Of a stretch of 37,403 nt of DNA, positions 8,996 through 19,955 are shown one piece after another. The position numbers were made by a program, and so were the translations under genes. The DNA is from Terriglobia bacterium (GTDB taxonomy: Bacteria; Acidobacteriota; Vicinamibacteria; Vicinamibacterales; CAVVIG01): the NCBI GenBank assembly GCA_020073005.1, contig JAIQFX010000069.1:1-37403 (forward strand), written 5' to 3'. Each line of letters begins with the position of its first letter. The first letter of the stretch is position 1. The notes beneath the pieces were generated by a model. It saw nothing but the letters and a program-made list of their open reading frames with translations. It searched no databases and was not told the DNA's origin.

Positions 8996-9264
8996 CCAGC
9001 CGCGTCGAGGCCGCAACAACTTCCTTACAACAGATTACAACCGGAGGCGAGTTGCCGAAATTCCGACGGCTCCGGTCTTTCGGACACCAAACTTCTGGAG
9101 ATCGGATCGACTTGCATGATCTTTCCCTCACGCGCCGCTTGCGGAGGGTCCTTTATCAGTTGATAATCCGGCCGTTTCCCTTTTCATAACGGTTTTCACG
9201 CGCTCTTCTAACTGCGTCGGCGTCGTATCCCGGGTGTCTGCTCATTCTCGAGGGAGGGCTGGAC
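8996..9264. other. Intergenic region upstream of the TonB receptor
   Basis: 269 bp without a credible gene. It is less GC-rich than its surroundings, especially 9145-9215, as expected of a promoter region. TTGATA at 9160-9165 and TCATAA at 9184-9189 (18-bp spacing) are a weak sigma-70-like candidate. A 6-bp stem CCGGAG/CTCCGG spans about 9041-9075. GAGGGAGG at 9250-9257 is a strong ribosome site for the downstream ATG. Confidence 0.4.
9160..9189 (+). promoter_or_regulatory. Candidate sigma-70 promoter for the TonB receptor
   Basis: TTGATA (9160-9165), an 18-bp gap, then TCATAA (9184-9189), in the only AT-rich part of the upstream region and about 75 bp before ATG 9265. The -10 match is imperfect, so this is a candidate only. 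Confidence 0.25.
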
Positions 9265-12243
9265 ATGGACAGGATTCGAGTTCGCGTCGTGGCGATCTTT
9301 ATTGGAGCGTTGCTTGGAGCGTGGCCCGCCGCGGCACAAGAGGGCACATCACAGATGCGCGGGCGCGTGACTGACCAGCAGGCCGGCGCGCTGCCCGGCG
9401 TGACGGTGACCGTGACGAACCAGGCCTCGGGAACGTTTCGCGAGGCGGTGAGCGGGGCGGACGGTTCGTGGTTCATGGCGGCGCTGCCGCCCGGCAGATA
9501 CCAGGTGGCCGCGGAACTTCAGGGCTTCAAGAAGTACGTGCGCCGCGACGTCACGGCCGCGGTCGGCGTCCAGGTGGCCATCGACATCCAACTCGAGATC
9601 GGCGGCGTCGAAGAGACGGTGACCGTCACGTCGGAGGCGCCGCTCATCGACGTCACGTCGAAGGAAATCGGCGGCAACATCAGCACGAAAGAGCTCGCCG
9701 AAATCCCGACCATCGCGCGCAACTTCACCTACTTCGCCGGCATGCTGCCGGGCATCGTGCCGACGGCCAACCTCGCGTCGTGGGGATCGGACACGCTGAC
9801 GGCCAACGGCGTCGACTCGCGCAACAACAGCTACCTCGTGGACGGCGCGTGGGACAACGACGACTACCTCGGGCAGAACAACGGCGCGCAGGCGCGCGTG
9901 CCGCTCGACGCCGCGCAGGAGTTCCAGGTCCTGACGGGACAGTTCGACGCGGAGTTCGGCCGGACCTCCGGTGCGATCGTCAACGCCGTGATCAAGTCCG
10001 GCACGAACGTCCTCCACGGCACGGCCTTCGAGTATTACTACAACCCGAGCACGAGGGCGAAGAACTTCTTCGAGGACCAGAACAACCTCGACAAAGCCGA
10101 CGCGCGGAAGAACGAGTTCGGCGCCTCGGTGGGCGGTCCGATCAAGCAGGACAAACTCCACTTCTTCGTCGACGTCGAGCGCGTGCAGTTGAACGAGGGG
10201 CGGACGATTCAGATTCCCGCCCGGCCGGATCTGAATTACTCGACGGTCACCGAAACGCGCGTCTGGGACACGGTCTATCGCGTGGACCATCAGATCAACG
10301 CGAACAACAGCTGGGGAGGCCGCTGGATCACCGAGTGGTCGCCGCAGACCAACCAGACCAACAACGCCGCGGTCACGTTGACGGCGGCCCAGCAGGAGTG
10401 GGATCGCGACGACACGGGCTCCATCCACTTCAACTCCGTGCTCGGGACGAACCGCGTCAACACGGTCCGTCTGTCGCTGACACGCGAAGACGACCGCTTC
10501 GCGCCCAACGGTTTCCCGGGGTGCAAGCAGAACTCAGTGTTCTTCCCGATCTGGCAGGCGACATTCGCCGACTGCGTCGCGACCAACGAGACGGCGATGC
10601 GGACCCAGGGCCCGAATCTGACCTACCTGACGTTCCAGGACGGCGTCCGGAACGCCGGCACGCACTGGATCACCGACTCGCCGGAGTTCTCCGACACGTT
10701 CAGCTGGTTCATCCCGGGCACGAAGAGCGGCGATCACGACATGAAGTTCGGGTTCCAGATGTACTACGCGGGGTGGCATTATCAGAACCACGCCCAGCTG
10801 AACGGGACGTTCGTGATCCCGTCGAACAACTCGTTCAATCCCGCTGATCCGCGCACGTACCCCGAGCGTCTGACCATTCAGGCGCCGACCGACCAGTACA
10901 TCTCGATGACGCAGTACGCCTACACGGGCTTCCTCCAGGACAAGTGGCACGTCTCGAATCGCGCGACGTTCAACCTGGGCGTGCGCTACGACATCGACTT
11001 CACGCCGCTCGATGAGACGGGCAACAAGTACTTCAGCGATCCCAGCGCCTATCCGGTCGACAAGAACAACATCTCGCCGCGCGTCGGCTTCACCTACACG
11101 ATGGACGAGGGCAAGTCGCTCATCCGGACCGGCTGGGGGCTGTTCTACGACAAGACGAACTTCGGGCTCCTGAACAGCTACGTCGTTGCCGGCGTTCAGG
11201 CGGCATCGGTCACGGCGCAGTTTCCGGCGGACGCCATCGACCCGGGTCCGCGCGCCGGCCGTTTCCCGACCGATCCGATGTTGAAGAACGGCCCGGTCGT
11301 CAACTACGCGCTGCTCAATTCGCTCTATCCGTCCGGATCGCTCGTGAGAAACACCGGCGACGTGTTCCTCGACAACCCGAGCCGGCAACAGCCGTACACG
11401 CAGCAGATCAGCGCCGGCTTCCAGCGGCAGCTCGCCGGGTCGGTGTCGGCCAGCGCCGACTACGTGCATACGATGGCGCGCGACCAGTGGCTGCTGGAGA
11501 ACCTGAACCCGGGGCTGCGCGTCAACACGACGGCGTCGGGCGCGATCAACCGCGTCGACCCGACCTTCGTCACCAACGTCTGGCAGCGGCAGAACATCGG
11601 CGAGTACACCTACGATGCGCTCAACGTGGTCCTCGAGAAGCGGGATTCCCACAACTGGAGCGCCCGCGCCTCGTACACGCTGGCGAACTCACGCGGCAAC
11701 AACAGCGGGGCCGAGACCTCGACGAACAACTACCAGCTACTGAACGACTCGAATCTCGCGGCGGGACAGGGACCGACCGACTTCGACCGTCGTCACAACC
11801 TGGTCCTCAGCGGCCGCATCGTCGAAGTGCCGGGCACGCGCGGCATGACGTTGAGCGGCACGCTGCGGCTGCTGAGCGGCACGGCGTTCACGCTGATCGA
11901 CACCAGCAGCGATCCCGATCGCAACGGCCAGTTGACCGACCCGCTGCCCGCCGGCAGCTACAGCGGCAACGGGGCGAACGCGATTACGGTCACCAACGCG
12001 GGCGGGCGCAACGGCGCCTACGGTCCCGGGTACGCGCAGCTCGACTCGCGCGTCGGCTGGCGGTTCAAGGTCGGCCCCGGCCGGACGATCGATCTGACGG
12101 CGGACGTGATCAACGTCACCAACCGCGCGAACTTCGTCAATCCGACCTCGGATCGCCGGAGCACGAACTTCCTGCTGCTGACGACGCTCTACGGCGGAGG
12201 CCAGCCGCGGCAGGCGCAGGTGGGAGTGAGGTTGGGGTTCTAG
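9265..12243 (+). CDS. TonB-dependent receptor with carboxypeptidase-regulatory-like N-terminal domain (Oar type)
   Basis: 992-aa outer-membrane protein. Signal peptide residues 1-25 (ending AWPAAAQ). A beta-sandwich of the carboxypeptidase-regulatory/CnaB type follows at about 30-110 (MRGRVTDQQAGALPGVTV, LPPGRYQVAAELQGFKKY). A plug-like segment lies at about 120-250 (VTVTSEAPLIDV, YLVDGAWDND, FGRTSGAIVNAVIKSGTN) and a long barrel extends to a terminal aromatic residue (QVGVRLGF). This is the Oar-like family that is strongly expanded in Acidobacteriota. The substrate is unknown; carbohydrates or peptides are possible. The ATG is fixed by GAGGGAGG 7 bp upstream. It is monocistronic and ends at a terminator at 12273. 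Confidence 0.93.
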   Translation: MDRIRVRVVAIFIGALLGAWPAAAQEGTSQMRGRVTDQQAGALPGVTVTVTNQASGTFREAVSGADGSWFMAALPPGRYQVAAELQGFKKYVRRDVTAAVGVQVAIDIQLEIGGVEETVTVTSEAPLIDVTSKEIGGNISTKELAEIPTIARNFTYFAGMLPGIVPTANLASWGSDTLTANGVDSRNNSYLVDGAWDNDDYLGQNNGAQARVPLDAAQEFQVLTGQFDAEFGRTSGAIVNAVIKSGTNVLHGTAFEYYYNPSTRAKNFFEDQNNLDKADARKNEFGASVGGPIKQDKLHFFVDVERVQLNEGRTIQIPARPDLNYSTVTETRVWDTVYRVDHQINANNSWGGRWITEWSPQTNQTNNAAVTLTAAQQEWDRDDTGSIHFNSVLGTNRVNTVRLSLTREDDRFAPNGFPGCKQNSVFFPIWQATFADCVATNETAMRTQGPNLTYLTFQDGVRNAGTHWITDSPEFSDTFSWFIPGTKSGDHDMKFGFQMYYAGWHYQNHAQLNGTFVIPSNNSFNPADPRTYPERLTIQAPTDQYISMTQYAYTGFLQDKWHVSNRATFNLGVRYDIDFTPLDETGNKYFSDPSAYPVDKNNISPRVGFTYTMDEGKSLIRTGWGLFYDKTNFGLLNSYVVAGVQAASVTAQFPADAIDPGPRAGRFPTDPMLKNGPVVNYALLNSLYPSGSLVRNTGDVFLDNPSRQQPYTQQISAGFQRQLAGSVSASADYVHTMARDQWLLENLNPGLRVNTTASGAINRVDPTFVTNVWQRQNIGEYTYDALNVVLEKRDSHNWSARASYTLANSRGNNSGAETSTNNYQLLNDSNLAAGQGPTDFDRRHNLVLSGRIVEVPGTRGMTLSGTLRLLSGTAFTLIDTSSDPDRNGQLTDPLPAGSYSGNGANAITVTNAGGRNGAYGPGYAQLDSRVGWRFKVGPGRTIDLTADVINVTNRANFVNPTSDRRSTNFLLLTTLYGGGQPRQAQVGVRLGF

Positions 12244-12316: not shown

Positions 12317-13894
12317 TCAGTCGAGCGCGAACACGAACAACGCGTGGCCGCCGGCAACGGCCACGTACTGTTTGTCGTTCGCGAAGTACGACATCGGTCC
12401 CGATCGAATCGCGCCGCCGGTCTGGAACTGCCAGAGCGCCTTCCCGGTCCTCGCATCCAGCGCGTAGAAATTGCCCTCGTTCGATCCGCTGAACACCAGT
12501 CCGCCCGCGGTCGCCATCACGCCCGCCCAGGTCGGCGTCGGCAGCGGAAAGTCCCACGCCTGTTTGCCCGTCCGCACGTCGATCGCGCGCACCGAGCCCC
12601 ACGATTCCTCGTCGAGCCGCTTCTCGCTGCCGCCCGTGTAGTACGTGCCGGGTTTGTACTCGACCCCGGTCTTGAAGTAGATCGATCCCATCTCCCGCAC
12701 CGGCACGTACAGCATGTTCGTCTGCGGGCTGTACGACGGGCTCGCCCAGTTGGTCGATCCCTGCAGGCTCGGATAGACGAGCGTGCCTTTCTCCGACGGC
12801 TCCATGTTCGGAATCAGAATGGGCCGTCCCTTCTCATCAAGTCCCCGCGCCCACGTCTGCTTCGCGTACGGTTGGCCGAGCAGGTACTCGCCGGTCCGGC
12901 GATCGAGCACGTAGAAGAAGCCGTTGCGATTCGCCGCGACGACGACCTGACGCGCGCGTCCGTTGATCTCGGTGTCGACGAGCACGGGGATCTGGTTCGC
13001 GTCCCAGTCGTGCACGTCGTGCGGCGTGAACTGGAACGTCCAGCGCAGCTTGCCGGTCTCGACGTCGAGCGCGACCAGAGACGACGTCCCGAAGTTGTCG
13101 CCGAGACGCGAATCGCCGTTCCAGTCCGGACCGGGATTGCCCGTGCCCCAGTAGAGCAGCTTGAGCTGCGGATCGTACGACCCGGTCAGCCACGTCGCGC
13201 CGCCGCCGTGCACCCAGCTGTCGCCGGGCCACGTGTCGCTGCCCGGCTCACCCGGCGACGGGATGGTCCAGTAGCGCCAGAGCTGCTTGCCGGTCTTCGC
13301 ATCGTAGGCATCGAGGAAGCCGCGGATGCCCGCTTCGCCGCCACTGATCCCGACGATGACTTTGTTGTCGACCACGAGCGGCGCGGCCGTGATCGCGTGG
13401 CCGCTTGGATTCTCGCCGACGTGCACCGACCAGCGCTCTATGCCGCTGCGCGCGTCGAGCGCGAAGAGATACCCGTCGAGCGTGCCGACGTAGACCATGT
13501 TGTCGAGATACGCGACGCCGCGGTTCACGCGCGGGAATCCGAGATTGAGGACGCTCGGCGCGATCGGCCGCGTCCATTCCCAGAGCGGCTTGCCGCTCTT
13601 GAGATCGAGCGCGGCGACGATCGTCGGTCCCGCCGTCACGTACATCACGCCGTTGACGACGACCGGCGTCGCTTCGAGCGAGCCGGCGCCCGGCGGTTGA
13701 TACACCCACGCCGGACGCAGCCGGCCGACCGTGGCCGGCGTGATTTGTGTCAGCGGTGAGTAGCGCTGCGCCGAGTACTGCCCGGAATACATCGGCCACT
13801 GGCCGTCCTGCGCGACCAGCGTCGCGGCGGCCGCGACTACAAGGGCAGCGATTTGCAGCGCGAGCCTTTCAGGCGAGCGTCTCATCCTTCTCAT
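12317..13894 (-). CDS. PQQ-dependent dehydrogenase (quinoprotein alcohol-dehydrogenase-like beta-propeller)
   Basis: 525 aa with a Sec signal peptide, so periplasmic. Repeated propeller words (VVVNGVMYV, LDLKSGKPLWEW, VALDVETGKLRWTF, YALDARTGKALWQF) mark an eight-bladed PQQ propeller. Residues expected at the PQQ/metal site are present: Glu in GGEAGIRG, Asn in GTGNPGPDWN and Asp in PHDVHDWDAN. The protein lacks a C-terminal haem domain, so electrons would leave through the dihaem cytochrome encoded immediately upstream (ATGA overlap at 13891-13894). The substrate is not predictable. The disulphide of adjacent cysteines typical of methanol dehydrogenase was not seen. Residues 6-12 (RSPERLA) derive from a palindromic repeat. 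Confidence 0.9.
   Translation of the reverse strand: MRRMRRSPERLALQIAALVVAAAATLVAQDGQWPMYSGQYSAQRYSPLTQITPATVGRLRPAWVYQPPGAGSLEATPVVVNGVMYVTAGPTIVAALDLKSGKPLWEWTRPIAPSVLNLGFPRVNRGVAYLDNMVYVGTLDGYLFALDARSGIERWSVHVGENPSGHAITAAPLVVDNKVIVGISGGEAGIRGFLDAYDAKTGKQLWRYWTIPSPGEPGSDTWPGDSWVHGGGATWLTGSYDPQLKLLYWGTGNPGPDWNGDSRLGDNFGTSSLVALDVETGKLRWTFQFTPHDVHDWDANQIPVLVDTEINGRARQVVVAANRNGFFYVLDRRTGEYLLGQPYAKQTWARGLDEKGRPILIPNMEPSEKGTLVYPSLQGSTNWASPSYSPQTNMLYVPVREMGSIYFKTGVEYKPGTYYTGGSEKRLDEESWGSVRAIDVRTGKQAWDFPLPTPTWAGVMATAGGLVFSGSNEGNFYALDARTGKALWQFQTGGAIRSGPMSYFANDKQYVAVAGGHALFVFALD
13861..13878. repeat. Palindromic element, CGAGCCTTTCAGGCGAGC copy 1
   Basis: Exact 18-mer also found at 25002-25019 (inverted) and 33681-33698. 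GCCT-TTC-AGGC forms the stem, and GCGAGC flanks it as a direct repeat. This copy lies in the first dozen codons of the PQQ dehydrogenase, in the n-region before the hydrophobic signal core. Confidence 0.8.
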
Positions 13895-14676
13895 CGCGCA
13901 CCTCGCAACGTCGAGAGGTACGCCACTACATCGTCGAGCTGCGGCCCCGAGAGGCGCGACTCGTATGAGGGCATCAGCGACGCGTCCGTTTCGCGATCGA
14001 CGCGCGTCAAGTCCGCCTTCTCGAGCGTGTGCACCGTGCCGCCCGCGTCGCGGATGTGGATCCAGAAGACGTCCTCGTTCACGCGAATGCCGCGGACCTC
14101 CGGACCGGACTTCGGCACGGCGCGCACGACGAGGTAGCCCGTCGGATGCGCGGCGGCCGGCTTCACGATCGACTCGCGCAGGTACGCGGGTCCGCGCCGC
14201 GCCGCGATGCCCGTCAGCTCGGGCCCGACGATGCCGCCGCGGCCGTCGATCACGTGGCAGGACCCGCATCCGGTGGACTGATAGAGCTCGGCGCCGCGCT
14301 GCGCGCTGCCAGGCACGGGACGCGGCGTTGCGCGCGAGAGCGATTGCACGTACGTGGCCGCCTGCCGCGCGTGGCGCTCGGTGAGCGGCGACCTGAACGA
14401 CGGCATGTCCGTGCCGGGTATGCCGTTGATGATGATGTCGACGATGGACCGGAGGTCCGTCGCATGCCGCAGCCGGCCGTGCAGATTCGGTCCGGTGCCG
14501 CCGTCGCCGTCGTTGCCGTGACACCAGGCGCACTGCGAGTCGAAGATCTTCTTGCCGGCGGCCAGATCGCTCGATGACGATGCGGGCGGCCGCGCTCCGC
14601 GAATCTGCGCAGCGGCATCCATCGATAGCGTCAACAGCGCGCCGGCGATCACCAGCGTCACGGACTCACGTCTCAC
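13891..14676 (-). CDS. Periplasmic dihaem cytochrome c
   Basis: 261 aa with a signal peptide ([20 protein letters not shown]). Two CxxCH haem sites, CAWCH at 49-53 and CGSCH at 137-141, give two class-I cytochrome c domains; Met91 (GTDMPSF) and the LMPSY methionine near the C-terminus are the likely axial ligands. It probably accepts electrons from the PQQ dehydrogenase whose start overlaps its stop. The start is GTG 14676, preceded by a near-ideal GGAGGTGA at 14681-14688 and a TATAAT at 14699-14704. The segment between the second haem and the C-terminus ([15 protein letters not shown]) resembles the haem-c/heme-binding regulatory tails often seen with acidobacterial oxidoreductases. Confidence 0.9.
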
Positions 14677-16280: not shown

Positions 16281-19200
16281 ATGACCCCATCGCGCCTGCG
16301 CCGCCTGCTGTCGCCCGTCGTCGAACTGCGCGACGAAGAGAGCGTCACCGCGCTCCTGATGTTCGCGTACTCGTTCCTCGCGATGAGCGGGTACAACGTC
16401 CTCAAGCCCACCACGCGATCGAAGTTCATCGACGATCTCGGCGCGAACAACCTGCCGTACGTGCAGCTCGCCGCCGGGCTGCTGATGGGATTCGTGATTC
16501 AGGGCTACACGAAGGTGATGCAGGCGCTGCCGCGCCGCTGGGTGTTTCCGGTCACGCAACTCACGATGGCCGCGTTCCTCGTGGGATTCTGGACGCTCTT
16601 CAAGACCGGCCAGAGCTGGGTCTCGGTCGTGTACTACTTCTGGGGACTGCTGGCCGGCAGCCTGCTGATCAGCCAGTTCTGGACGCTCGCCAACGACATC
16701 TACGAGCCGCGGCAGGCGAAACGCACCTTCGGGTTCATCGGCGGCGGCGCGAGCCTCGGCGGCATCGTCGGCGCCGGCCTCGCCGGCCGGCTCGCCAGGC
16801 CCGTCGGAACCGAGAACCTGCTGCTGATCGGCGCGGGCTTCCTCTTCCTCTGCTTCTTCGTCGTCTGGGCGGTCGTCAACCGCGAGCAGCCGCCTGATCG
16901 ATCCGGCGTCAACGAGAAGCGGGAAGAGGTGAGTGCGGCCGAGGGACTGCGCCTGCTGCTGCACTCGCGTCACCTGCAAATCATCGCGCTCGTGATCAGC
17001 TTCGCGGCGATCGGCGCAGGCATCATCGAACAGCAGCTCAACATGGCCGCGGGCCAGTTGATCCCGCTCAAGGACGCGCGGACGGCGTTCATCGCCGACG
17101 TCATCTTCTATTCGTCGATCGTCGGCCTGATCATTCAGATGACGCTGACGGCGCGGATGCACCGCGTGCTCGGCATCGGGTTCGCCTTGCTGATCCTGCC
17201 GTTCAGCCTCGGCACGACGGCCATCGTCATGCTGCTCAATCCCGTGCTCTGGGCGACGACGCTGGCGCGCGTCTCGGACACGGCGCTGCGGTACACCGCC
17301 GACAAGACGACGCGCGAAATCCTGTTCATGCCGCTCCCCACGGACCTGAAGTACAAGGCGAAACCGTTCGTGGACGTCGCCGTCGACCGGTTCGCGAAAG
17401 GCGCGGGCGCCGCGCTGGCGCTGCTGATTGCGATCAAGGTGTTCCACATGACGTGGTGGCAGCTGAGCTATCTCAGCCTGCCCATCTCCGTGCTCTGGGT
17501 CGTGCTCGCCGTCAGGGCCAAGCACGAATATCAGAAGACGTTCCGGAAGAGCATCGAGCGGCACGACATCGACGCGGAAGAGGTGCGCATCAACGTGGCG
17601 GACTCGACGACGGTCGAGACGCTGATCGAGGAGCTCGCGAGCCCAGACGATCGTCGCGTGATCTACGCCATCGACCTGCTCGATTCGCTGGACAAGCGCA
17701 ACCTCATCACGCCGCTGCTCCTGCACCACGAGTCGCTGCGCGTCCGCGTCAGAGCGCTGACCGCGATGGCCGCGATGAACGATGCCCGGCCCGATCTCGC
17801 CGGGCGCTGGATCCCGGCGATCGAGCGGCTGCTGACGGACGAGGATCCGGACGTGCGGACGGCGGCCGTGCGCACGCTCGCGACGCTGCGCCGCGAGGGC
17901 GCCGCCGAGTTCATGCGGCCGTACCTCGACGATCGCGACCCGCGTCTCGTGATCACCGCGGCGGTCGCCCTGGCCGACAGCGCCGAGACGGCCGATCAGG
18001 CCGCGGCCCAGCGCGCCATCGAACGGCTCGTCGAAGATCCGCGCGAGGCCTCGTCCGAGATCCGGCGCGAGGTCGCGCGGTCCCTTTCCGCGATCCGCAA
18101 TCCGCAATTCCGCAATCTCCTGATCCCGTTGCTGTATGACGCCGACGCCGACGTCGCGCTCGCGGCCATTCGCGGCGCGGGCACCATCCCCGCTGCCGGC
18201 GCGCTCCTGTGTGTCGCGCCGCTCGTGTCGCTGCTGCGCAACCGCGCGCTCAAGGCGGCGGCGCGCGACGTGCTCGTCGGCTACGGCGAGCCGATCCTCG
18301 GCGTGCTGGCGCACTTCCTCAGGGACGAAGAGGAGGATCTCTGGGTCCGGCGCCACATTCCGGCGACGCTGGCGCGCATCCCGTCGCAGGCGTCCGTGGA
18401 TCTCCTGGTCGAGCGTCTCGGCGATGCCGACGGCTTTCTCCGCTACAAGGCGATCGCCGCGCTCGAGACGCTGCTGCGGGCGCGCCCGGATCTGAAATGC
18501 GCGCGCGTGCCGGTCGAGACGCTCGCCATGAGGGAGGCGCTGCGGTCCTGCATGTACCTCAGCCTGCTCGCGAATCTTCGTCGCGCCGATCCCGACGTCA
18601 CCGCCGGGCAACTGGCGCGCGCGCTGCAGGACAAGCTCGATCGATCGAAGGACAGGATCTATCGCCTGCTGGGACTGCTGTACGGCGCGAAGGACGTGGC
18701 CGCGGCGCGGTGGGCGCTCGATCGGGGCCAGAGCCGCGCGAAGTCGAGCGCGGCGGAGTTTCTCGACAACCTGTTGAAGGGCGATCTCCGCAAGCGTGTG
18801 ATGCCCCTTCTCGAGGAGCTCCCCATCGACGAGCGCGTGCGCAAGGCGAACGTGCTGATCAAGTCGCGGCCGCGCGATCAGGCGGACACGGTCACGCAGC
18901 TCGTGCACGACGACGACCAGGTCGTCGCCGCCGCGGCGATTCACTACGTCGAAGCCCGCAAGCTCGACGCACTCGCGGGCGATCTCGAGCAGACGCTCGA
19001 GCACCGCGACGTCCGCGACTGGTACGTTTTCGAGGCCGCGTCGTGGGCGCTCGCGTCGCAGCGGATGTCGGCCGAGGAGCGGCGCGCGCGCTGGATGGAG
19101 CCGCTGCCCGCGGTCGAAGTCGTCGATCGCCTGCGCCATGTTCCGCTGTTCGCGTTCGTGTCCGTCGACGAGCTGTACCGGATCGTCGCGGTCGGCCATC

Positions 19201-19955
19201 AGGCGCGATACGAGACGGGCAACCGCATCGACGAGCCGGGCGGCGGCGCGATGCTGCGATTCCTGCTCGACGGTCGCGTCGTGCTGCGGACGGGCGATCG
19301 CACGTCGGCCACGGAAATCGCGGCGCCGGCGGCCTTCGGCTTCGACACCGTGCTCGCCGCGGCGCCGTCCGGCGATTCGCTGGTCGCCGCGGACTCCACG
19401 ATCGTGCTGGCGCTGCCGACGGAGGAATTTCTCACGCTGCTGTCGGCGAACACGCAGCTGGCCGCGGGCCTGTTCCGCATGTTGATGGCGCGGGCGACGC
19501 CGTCAGCAGCGCCGTCGCTCCTGCATCCGCGCGCCAGGGCCGAGGCGAGAGCGGCCGCGCCGGGCGGATTGCGGGCCGTGGACAAAGTGCTCGCGCTCGA
19601 GGAGGTGCCGGTGTTCGCGCGGGCGACGGCCGAGGAGCTGATCGCGCTGGCGGCGATTGCGCGCGAGGTGCCGATCGTCGAGGGCGCGGATCTGTTCGCC
19701 GAGGGCGAGCCCGCCGCCGTGCACATCGTGCTCAGCGGTTCGCTGCAGCTTCAGCGCAACGGCGGCGCCGCCGTCAGCGCCGGCTCCGGCGATGCGATTG
19801 GCGTCGTCGAGACGCTCGGCGGCGGACTGGCGGAAGCGCACGCGCGCGGCGTCGCGTCAGGATCGGCGCTGCGGATCGATCGCGACGCGTTGTTCGAGGT
19901 GCTGAGCGACCGCATCGACTTGATGCGCGGCTTGTTTGCTGCGATGAAAGCCTGA
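16281..19955 (+). CDS. Nucleotide-transporter-like (ATP/ADP translocase, Npt/TLC-type) membrane protein fused to HEAT repeats and two cNMP-binding-like domains
   Basis: 1224 aa in three parts. Residues 1 to about 420 form about 11-12 helices with the translocase-like segment LISQFWTLANDIYEPRQAKR followed by FGFIGGGASLGGIVGAGLAG, as in COG3202/TLC and related MFS proteins. Residues about 435-850 are helical HEAT-like repeats (DEDPDVRTAAVRTLATL, DRDPRLVITAAVALAD). Two cyclic-nucleotide-binding-type beta-rolls follow, about 950-1075 and 1095-1224, each with the leading helix pattern (VPLFAFVSVDELYRI; VPVFARATAEELIAL). The phosphate-binding-cassette GExA...RSA residues are not evident, so ligand binding is uncertain. 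ATG 16281 has no strong ribosome site. It looks like a membrane carrier with a regulatory or scaffold tail; true ATP/ADP exchange is unproven. Confidence 0.82.
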   Translation: MTPSRLRRLLSPVVELRDEESVTALLMFAYSFLAMSGYNVLKPTTRSKFIDDLGANNLPYVQLAAGLLMGFVIQGYTKVMQALPRRWVFPVTQLTMAAFLVGFWTLFKTGQSWVSVVYYFWGLLAGSLLISQFWTLANDIYEPRQAKRTFGFIGGGASLGGIVGAGLAGRLARPVGTENLLLIGAGFLFLCFFVVWAVVNREQPPDRSGVNEKREEVSAAEGLRLLLHSRHLQIIALVISFAAIGAGIIEQQLNMAAGQLIPLKDARTAFIADVIFYSSIVGLIIQMTLTARMHRVLGIGFALLILPFSLGTTAIVMLLNPVLWATTLARVSDTALRYTADKTTREILFMPLPTDLKYKAKPFVDVAVDRFAKGAGAALALLIAIKVFHMTWWQLSYLSLPISVLWVVLAVRAKHEYQKTFRKSIERHDIDAEEVRINVADSTTVETLIEELASPDDRRVIYAIDLLDSLDKRNLITPLLLHHESLRVRVRALTAMAAMNDARPDLAGRWIPAIERLLTDEDPDVRTAAVRTLATLRREGAAEFMRPYLDDRDPRLVITAAVALADSAETADQAAAQRAIERLVEDPREASSEIRREVARSLSAIRNPQFRNLLIPLLYDADADVALAAIRGAGTIPAAGALLCVAPLVSLLRNRALKAAARDVLVGYGEPILGVLAHFLRDEEEDLWVRRHIPATLARIPSQASVDLLVERLGDADGFLRYKAIAALETLLRARPDLKCARVPVETLAMREALRSCMYLSLLANLRRADPDVTAGQLARALQDKLDRSKDRIYRLLGLLYGAKDVAAARWALDRGQSRAKSSAAEFLDNLLKGDLRKRVMPLLEELPIDERVRKANVLIKSRPRDQADTVTQLVHDDDQVVAAAAIHYVEARKLDALAGDLEQTLEHRDVRDWYVFEAASWALASQRMSAEERRARWMEPLPAVEVVDRLRHVPLFAFVSVDELYRIVAVGHQARYETGNRIDEPGGGAMLRFLLDGRVVLRTGDRTSATEIAAPAAFGFDTVLAAAPSGDSLVAADSTIVLALPTEEFLTLLSANTQLAAGLFRMLMARATPSAAPSLLHPRARAEARAAAPGGLRAVDKVLALEEVPVFARATAEELIALAAIAREVPIVEGADLFAEGEPAAVHIVLSGSLQLQRNGGAAVSAGSGDAIGVVETLGGGLAEAHARGVASGSALRIDRDALFEVLSDRIDLMRGLFAAMKA

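Follow-up and report, generated by a model that had tools for sequence, protein, structure and literature searches.

A nucleotide-transporter-type fusion protein in Acidobacteriota and its link to genes for exported Fam20-like kinases

The stretch of DNA that we analysed (the window) is 37,403 nt long and covers positions 1 to 37,403 of contig JAIQFX010000069.1, from the assembly GCA_020073005.1 of a Terriglobia bacterium (Acidobacteriota, order Vicinamibacterales); it is contig C169 of the 5.86 Mb assembly in our numbering. At 16281-19955 on the forward strand it carries a gene for a 1224-aa protein in which an ATP/ADP translocase (NTT) domain is followed by HEAT repeats and then by two rolls of the cyclic-nucleotide-binding-domain (cNBD) type, all in a single chain. 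In the Acidobacteriota, NTTs have a strong link to genes for exported Fam20-like kinases and PPP phosphatases, and this link is new as far as we searched. Export of ATP is the best explanation that we have for it, at about even odds.

The fusion gene and its predicted domains

The gene and its parts are as follows, with the evidence in brackets.

16281..19955, forward strand: whole gene, NTT-HEAT-cNBD-cNBD fusion of 1224 aa (open reading frame, Pfam, codon GC, model)
16317..17570, forward strand: membrane half, residues 13-430, NTT (ATP/ADP translocase) fold with 12 helices (TLC and MFS_1 in Pfam, profile, VIA)
17604..19091, forward strand: HEAT solenoid, about residues 442-937, taken as cytoplasmic (HEAT_2, helical repeats in the model)
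19110..19493, forward strand: first cNBD-type roll, about residues 944-1071, cassette not canonical (Foldseek tandem CNB domains, model, cassette region of 15 orthologues)
19575..19952, forward strand: second cNBD-type roll, about residues 1099-1224, cassette not canonical (Pfam cNMP_binding at 1134-1209, model to 1212, cassette region)

The reading frame starts with ATG, has no internal stops and has a gene-like GC content by codon position (0.71/0.46/0.90). The closest relative is 87% identical across residues 1-1223, and 14 further relatives align over almost the whole length with 46-60% identity; the 13 loci that came from named genomes were all from Acidobacteria or Vicinamibacterales. 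With an intact frame, gene-like codon GC and relatives, we dropped the idea of a chance open reading frame. The Pfam matches above cut-off were HEAT_2 (75.4 bits, 4.5e-21), MFS_1 (56.1 bits), TLC (PF03219, 52.6 bits against a curated cut-off of 21) and cNMP_binding (41.8 bits, in two stretches); MFS_1 and TLC fall in the N-terminal third and HEAT in mid-protein. An AlphaFold model of residues 13-1212, based on 21 alignment rows, comprises 12 long helices, a solenoid of helical repeats and a pair of beta-rolls (pLDDT 79.4, pTM 0.58). The original prediction, made from the sequence of the window, was of a membrane half joined to HEAT repeats and two cNMP-type domains in one protein, and the reading frame, Pfam, the model and the fold search all confirm it.

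The top Foldseek matches of the model were AtNTT1 and Chlamydia NTT1 (E 6e-10 to 2e-9). VIA-align placed 410 residues of the membrane half on ATP-bound AtNTT1 (9j3l_A) with a Z of 41.6 and a root mean square deviation of 2.4 A, and the top non-NTT fold in its list was LacY, with a Z of 30.7. A profile built on the phylum's own NTT domains, 13 in number, matched CpNTT1 (3.9e-44) and AtNTT1 (5.5e-40). From the fold and the profile matches, we are firm in reading the modelled membrane half as an NTT and not merely as a member of the MFS. The nucleotide-transporter-like half had been predicted with a non-transport MFS scaffold as the alternative. We dropped this scaffold because solved ATP/ADP translocators outrank every other MFS row among the matches listed. 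For NCBIfam TIGR00769, the canonical NTP/NDP exchange transporter, the protein scored 50.8 bits and did not reach the cut-off of 387.2, so its sequence places it only in the wider NTT family.

Three residues of AtNTT1, K155, E245 and K527, are important for binding or transport (PMC3306366), and E385 is a fourth (PMC10654386). We located them on printed sequence alignments, where a chain offset of 84 fits all four and K155 lies in FLKTW. This mapping came out in two halves. Two of the four critical charged residues are retained in the window protein (E385 as E250, K527 as K373) and the other two are lost. Across 15 focal-type proteins, position 250 is E/D and position 373 is K/R in all 15, and K155 and E245 are not conserved. 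W134, R148, G160, G298, P307, E346, K361 and D365 are conserved in 37-40 of 40 proteins.

After the NTTs, Foldseek listed the tandem CNB domains of PKG and of the regulatory PKA chain (PKA-R) at about 2e-7, and also SLC9C1. The canonical phosphate-binding cassette of a cNBD is Gly-Glu...Arg. It is absent from both rolls of the window protein, whose cassette region has no Glu-Arg pair. The prediction that the rolls lack the usual phosphate-binding residues is thus right for this protein; an Arg lies near the cassette position in a minority of the 15 orthologues. Judging from these residues, canonical binding of cAMP or cGMP by the window protein is unlikely. Because neither roll has the canonical cassette, we use the term cNBD-type fold and treat the rolls as putative rather than demonstrated cNMP binders. 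We dropped a canonical cAMP gate, as suggested in PMC5381601, because the rolls do not have the usual phosphate-binding pattern.

Exported kinases and phosphatases near relatives of the gene

Twenty regions around NTT matches were hand-picked and fetched before any hypothesis. The gene caller miscalled some high-GC loci, and operons were redone from six-frame open reading frames. Genes called in 34 loci, among which L047 and L057 represent the same locus twice, were clustered. After the NTTs, the largest cluster (c1) had 20 members, spread over 10 of these loci. It contains PPP phosphatases, proteins that are kinase-like and fusions between the two, mostly with signal-peptide-like starts.

Several of these neighbourhoods are operons. 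In genome G320 a long NTT, a Fam20-like gene and a PPP gene follow each other on a single strand. A Fam20-like gene comes after the long NTT on the same strand in G315 and G319, and stands 35 bp behind it in G282, also on the same strand, with a convergent PPP gene; in the G282 locus (L073) the Fam20-like gene lies at 9211-10041 and the PPP gene at 10049-11170. G314 has the long NTT and then the Fam20-like gene, but its long form shifts frame before the rolls. The NTT domains of these five long forms are 47-50% identical to that of the window protein and both rolls align; Pfam finds TLC, HEAT and two cNMP stretches in those of G282 and G320. The order in G088 is Fam20-like, PPP, NTT-HEAT. Within 14 kb, G116 has two long NTTs, a gene of a second exported group (A1, described below), two Fam20-like genes and one PPP gene. 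Fam20-like genes flank the NTT on both sides in three genomes (G072, G170, G146), PPP-Fam20 fusions lie near an NTT in eight (G033, G069, G072, G082, G113, G152, G161, G170), and A1 adjoins an NTT on the same strand in another list of eight (G062, G125, G014, G005, G051, G104, G196, G095). By our tally, same-strand neighbourhoods with an NTT are found under 12 family labels for Fam20-like/PPP genes and 8 for A1.

We use "Fam20-like" for a resemblance in sequence, not for family membership. A profile of 12 kinase domains matched FAM20A/B/C (6e-11 to 7e-8) and PI4K2 (about 1e-4), and one of 24 domains, three of them from the window genome, matched FAM20A/B/C at 1e-9 to 6e-6, with FAM20A matched in both lobes. 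For single kinases (n=24), Pfam reported PI3_PI4_kinase in 14, HipA_2 in 13 and Fam20C in two (E up to 0.05, best 0.004). NCBIfam TIGR03843 matches all 24; the one score shown, for a single member, lies under its cut-off. In the 24-domain alignment (A8), three residues do not vary: the catalytic Asp (D185), an Asn five positions further along (N190) and the Asp of the DFG-type motif (D203). A8 holds 24 of 39 Fam20-like proteins, hand-picked without a fixed rule, so its invariance was favoured. A recount with all 39 and four more found the Asp-Asn-Asp set retained in 35 of 43 domains. In L071, L072, L073, L099 and L100, where a kinase gene comes immediately after a long-form NTT, the kinase has intact catalytic residues.

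By a crude rule, signal peptides were present in 32 of 37 Fam20-like, 18 of 19 PPP and 16 of 20 A1 proteins, compared with 175 of 464 other genes; by a stricter rule the counts were 25/37, 15/19 and 13/20 against 138/464. The PPP profile matched 2z72, a bacterial phosphatase listed as a protein-tyrosine-phosphatase, with an E of 7.8e-55, and the metal-site motifs are present in the PPP alignment (A3). PPP and Fam20-like domains also occur fused in one chain, mostly with a signal-peptide-like start (L083, L084, L086, L087, L088, L061, L062, L065).

The A1 group often adjoins an Omp85-type gene and lies upstream of NTT genes in several genomes. Since its profile had no convincing match against the PDB or the Fam20-like group, we call A1 kinase-like only. 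HipA_2 was reported in 3 of 16 A1/A7 proteins (best E 0.0023), hhalign to A8 gave a probability of 6%, and an AlphaFold model of an A1-type protein from five rows had a pLDDT of 37. The A1 proteins of L047, L040, L041, L044, L053 and L063 have HDD-x-R..N and DFGS-like motifs, an adjoining Omp85-type barrel gene and an NTT nearby.

Co-occurrence across genomes and other gene arrangements

We counted these groups in a first set of 199 Acidobacteriota genomes and in a second set of 162 genomes of the order (144 new and 18 from the first set), and the p-values ignore finer relatedness among the genomes. In the first set, 79 of the 199 genomes have an NTT. Fam20-like kinases are present in 36 genomes and all 36 have an NTT (hypergeometric 7.5e-18), as do 32 of the 35 genomes with A1 and 40 of the 49 with PPP; for long PPP matches (>800 bp, a cut chosen afterwards) the count is 29/29. 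Adjacency counts are lower bounds, as the NTT positions are those listed (150 domains in the first set), and second fragments of single matches were left out (2 of 52 rows for A1 and 9 of 68 for PPP). Within 10 kb of a listed NTT we found at least 28 of 110 Fam20-like matches (15 genomes), for a chance expectation of 1.5 of 110, along with at least 15 of 50 A1 matches (14 genomes) and at least 17 of 59 PPP matches (16 genomes). Counted from the NTT side, at least 46 of the 150 listed domains have a Fam20-like, PPP or A1 gene within 10 kb, several in one operon.

In the second set, 90 of the 162 genomes have an NTT and 66 a Fam20-like kinase; 58 have both, 8 the kinase only, 32 the NTT only and 64 neither (odds ratio (OR) 14.5, p 1.5e-12). 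The corresponding numbers are 48, 8, 29 and 59 in the 144 new genomes (OR 12.2, p 2.7e-10), and 38, 2, 22 and 38 in genomes that are at least 90% complete with at most 5% contamination. Stratification by family gave a Mantel-Haenszel OR of 15.6 (p 4.6e-9) for the 162 genomes, with the family labels of five that have no kinase and no NTT (G278, G280, G293, G303, G304) filled in from handle order. We chose two control families, with their own thresholds of 1e-8 and 1e-15, and neither had a significant link to the NTT: HipA_C, a kinase of related type (63 of 162 genomes, OR 0.6, p 0.11), and SelA (126 of 162 genomes, OR 1.8, p 0.13). The new genomes have at least nine kinase-NTT pairs within 10 kb (six family f6 genomes, G282, and G260 twice, with a broken NTT). 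With few adjacent pairs listed there, the link in the order is mostly shared presence and less adjacency.

In the window, the gene is flanked by a co-directional subtilase gene and a convergent SelA gene, and the 87% relative retains the SelA family downstream (cluster c38). We dropped a functional tie to SelA because of the lack of significant co-occurrence. A PQQ-type dehydrogenase gene at 12317-14661 has a second gene next to it; members of both clusters (c9, c10) turn up again near other orthologues, and the c10 member in L057 has CxxCH motifs by eye. The window genome also has four Fam20-like matches and, on contig C122, a second NTT-HEAT gene that shares one base with the co-directional gene of an exported PPP phosphatase.

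There are other arrangements of the NTT genes. In L036-L039, L043, L045, L050 and L051 the gene for a long NTT-HEAT-cNBD form is paired head to head with that for a shorter NTT-HEAT paralogue (about 920-945 aa), with about 40-210 bp between them, and the new genomes of the order have at least 24 NTT-domain pairs less than 400 bp apart. The long and short proteins may form a heteromer, or their genes may have a common promoter region. By eye, NTT-HEAT genes adjoin genes for a STAS-like small protein and an FHA/GAF/PP2C-type protein in L058, L059 and L064, and in L061 and L067 an NTT-HEAT-cNBD gene is followed by response-regulator and histidine-kinase genes and then by PPP. The long form lies in two frames in L044 (8992-12707, 733 + 505 aa) and in L100 (G314), which could be natural fission, decay or assembly error. 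On plasmids, tblastn found three distant MFS matches (25-26% identity), and no Fam20-like kinase is named among their neighbours; near the third lie genes for a histidine kinase and for a glutamate 5-kinase. A Fam20-like query had no match on plasmids.

A proposed outward exchanger, its alternatives and known systems

We propose that the window protein swaps cytoplasmic ATP for ADP and feeds periplasmic kinases, with the tail gating or docking it; we give this a probability of roughly one half. The periplasm is, to our knowledge, held to be without ATP, and an exported kinase would need ATP on the outside. An NTT-type exchanger in the inner membrane would work outward, passing cytoplasmic ATP to the periplasm and taking ADP back in, and a bacterium that makes ATP would have the gradient to drive it. 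The ATP would feed the exported Fam20/PI4K/HipA-like kinases, and the exported PPP phosphatases would remove the marks that these make. With 12 helices, both termini are on one side of the membrane, which in MFS folds is the cytoplasm, so the tail would be placed to gate the exchanger. The HEAT solenoid and the two degenerate cNBD rolls would either do this or dock a cytoplasmic partner, preventing free loss of ATP. NTTs are known to exchange ATP and ADP (PMC5381601, PMC3306366, PMC10654386). Given the repeated pairing with kinases and the exported phosphatase, supply of ATP for extracytoplasmic phosphorylation would be the simplest reading. We infer that the window copy acts in the same way from the neighbourhoods of its orthologues and the four kinase matches in its own genome. 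The original prediction held that a free-living bacterium must use such a carrier otherwise than intracellular parasites do; our results support this, and the neighbourhoods and co-occurrence point to the feeding of exported kinases as that use. The tail may, as the same prediction suggested, serve in sensing or docking. A little more tentatively, we suggest that this could be a bacterial counterpart of animal Golgi phosphorylation, in which deliberate ATP export under a HEAT-cNBD gate drives periplasmic Fam20-like kinases and PPP phosphatases.

A number of observations weigh against this proposal. By profiles against called genes, the window itself has no Fam20-like, A1 or PPP gene. K155 and E245 of AtNTT1 are replaced in the window protein by Q62 and L123, and the K527 place is Asp in 16 of 25 other relatives, so substrates may vary. 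Fam20-like kinases are missing from 43 of the 79 NTT genomes in the first set, and 31 of the 79 have neither kinase nor A1; for 104 of the 150 NTT domains listed, no gene of the three groups lies within 10 kb. In the order, 32 of 90 NTT genomes have no kinase and 8 of 66 kinase genomes have no NTT, including two at more than 90% completeness (G248 and G259, the latter with a partial kinase match). Of the 43 Fam20-like domains, seven are missing a catalytic residue and another has a gap at that place. A subgroup near NTT genes, without the catalytic Asp and Asn, accounts for six of the seven (L058_7, L059_5, L083_10, L084_4, L085_1, L087_7), and the seventh is a fragment without the Asn. In addition, the sequences behind the profiles came from NTT neighbourhoods, in the first 199 genomes and in named loci, and all genomes are of one phylum.

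The NTT might carry another substrate (NAD, another nucleotide, or a glycan or lipid precursor), with the kinases nearby through a common envelope pathway. The loss of K155 and E245 would fit this, as would the Omp85-type and BON-domain genes near several copies and the case of PamNTT4, which carries NAD (PMC5381601). We think it rather unlikely, since exported kinases whose catalytic residues are intact should require a nucleotide outside and, among the gene groups examined, the NTT is the sole membrane carrier that recurs beside them. Nucleotide salvage seems to us somewhat less likely again. Here the NTT would import nucleotides or ADP, as parasite NTTs do (PMC5381601), and the exported PPPs would be nucleotidases or Ap4A-type hydrolases that prepare them. 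The PPP profile does reach diadenosine tetraphosphatases, at an E of about 1e-6, but it is far nearer to the 2z72 phosphatase, and salvage leaves the kinase link unexplained.

It is improbable that the membrane half does not transport at all and is a sensor or scaffold, with the HEAT-cNBD tail signalling inside the cell. The long tail would suit such a role, as would the response-regulator, histidine-kinase, FHA/PP2C-type and STAS-type genes seen by eye beside some copies, but 37-40 of 40 relatives conserve R148, E346, K361 and D365, and the match of the fold to ATP-bound AtNTT1 runs along its length. We see very little chance that the kinase link is only common ancestry and genome size, with gene groups that persist in the same lineages without cooperating. 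Presence and absence do track lineages, the genomes are not independent, and adjacency in new genomes is listed for eight genomes only. Against this, the same-strand neighbourhoods span 12 (Fam20-like/PPP) and 8 (A1) family labels, adjacency is above chance, the within-family OR is 15.6, and the two control families have no significant link.

Outward ATP exchange would give a role to an architecture that is already in print. NTT-HEAT and NTT-HEAT-cNBD fusions are known in free-living bacteria (Major, Embley and Williams 2017, PMC5381601); that paper tabulated three Acidobacteria sequences, inferred a single origin, reported a doubled cNBD in Bacilli and oomycetes, suggested cAMP control and left the function open. 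The window protein is a member of this architecture, with the same domain order. It differs in that the doubled cNBD is now found in Acidobacteriota, with rolls that do not have the usual cassette, and the available sections of PMC5381601 have no mention of the kinase/phosphatase gene context. No title linking an NTT to exported kinases was found among the matches listed from the open-licence literature, and by term match the available text of two Fam20 papers (PMC7948968, PMC5865150) names bacteria once, in a reference list, and prokaryotes never. The kinase link makes a testable claim about the role that was left open in 2017.

AtNTT1 and Chlamydia pneumoniae NTT1 (9j3l, 9j3m, 9j3n) share their fold with the window protein over the whole membrane half, along with equivalents of K527 and E385, whereas the window protein has only 18-19% identity to them, has lost K155 and E245 and has a large extra tail. 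SLC9C1 is also a membrane exchanger with a C-terminal cNBD, but it has another transport fold, one cNBD and a voltage sensor.

The neighbour kinases resemble the animal Fam20 secretory kinases (the pseudokinase FAM20A, FAM20B and FAM20C) in their profile match and, by the crude rule, their signal peptides. They differ in being bacterial and shorter, with a Pfam Fam20C match in only 2 of 24. Five of the six members of the subgroup without catalytic residues are in loci that also have intact copies (L058, L059, L083, L084, L085), and these could be pseudokinase partners; a catalytically dead copy beside some intact kinases recalls the FAM20A-FAM20C pair. If our proposal is true, this would be an NTT that works outward, and some bacteria would have extracytoplasmic phosphorylation with an ATP supply of its own, as in the animal Golgi with its Fam20 kinases.

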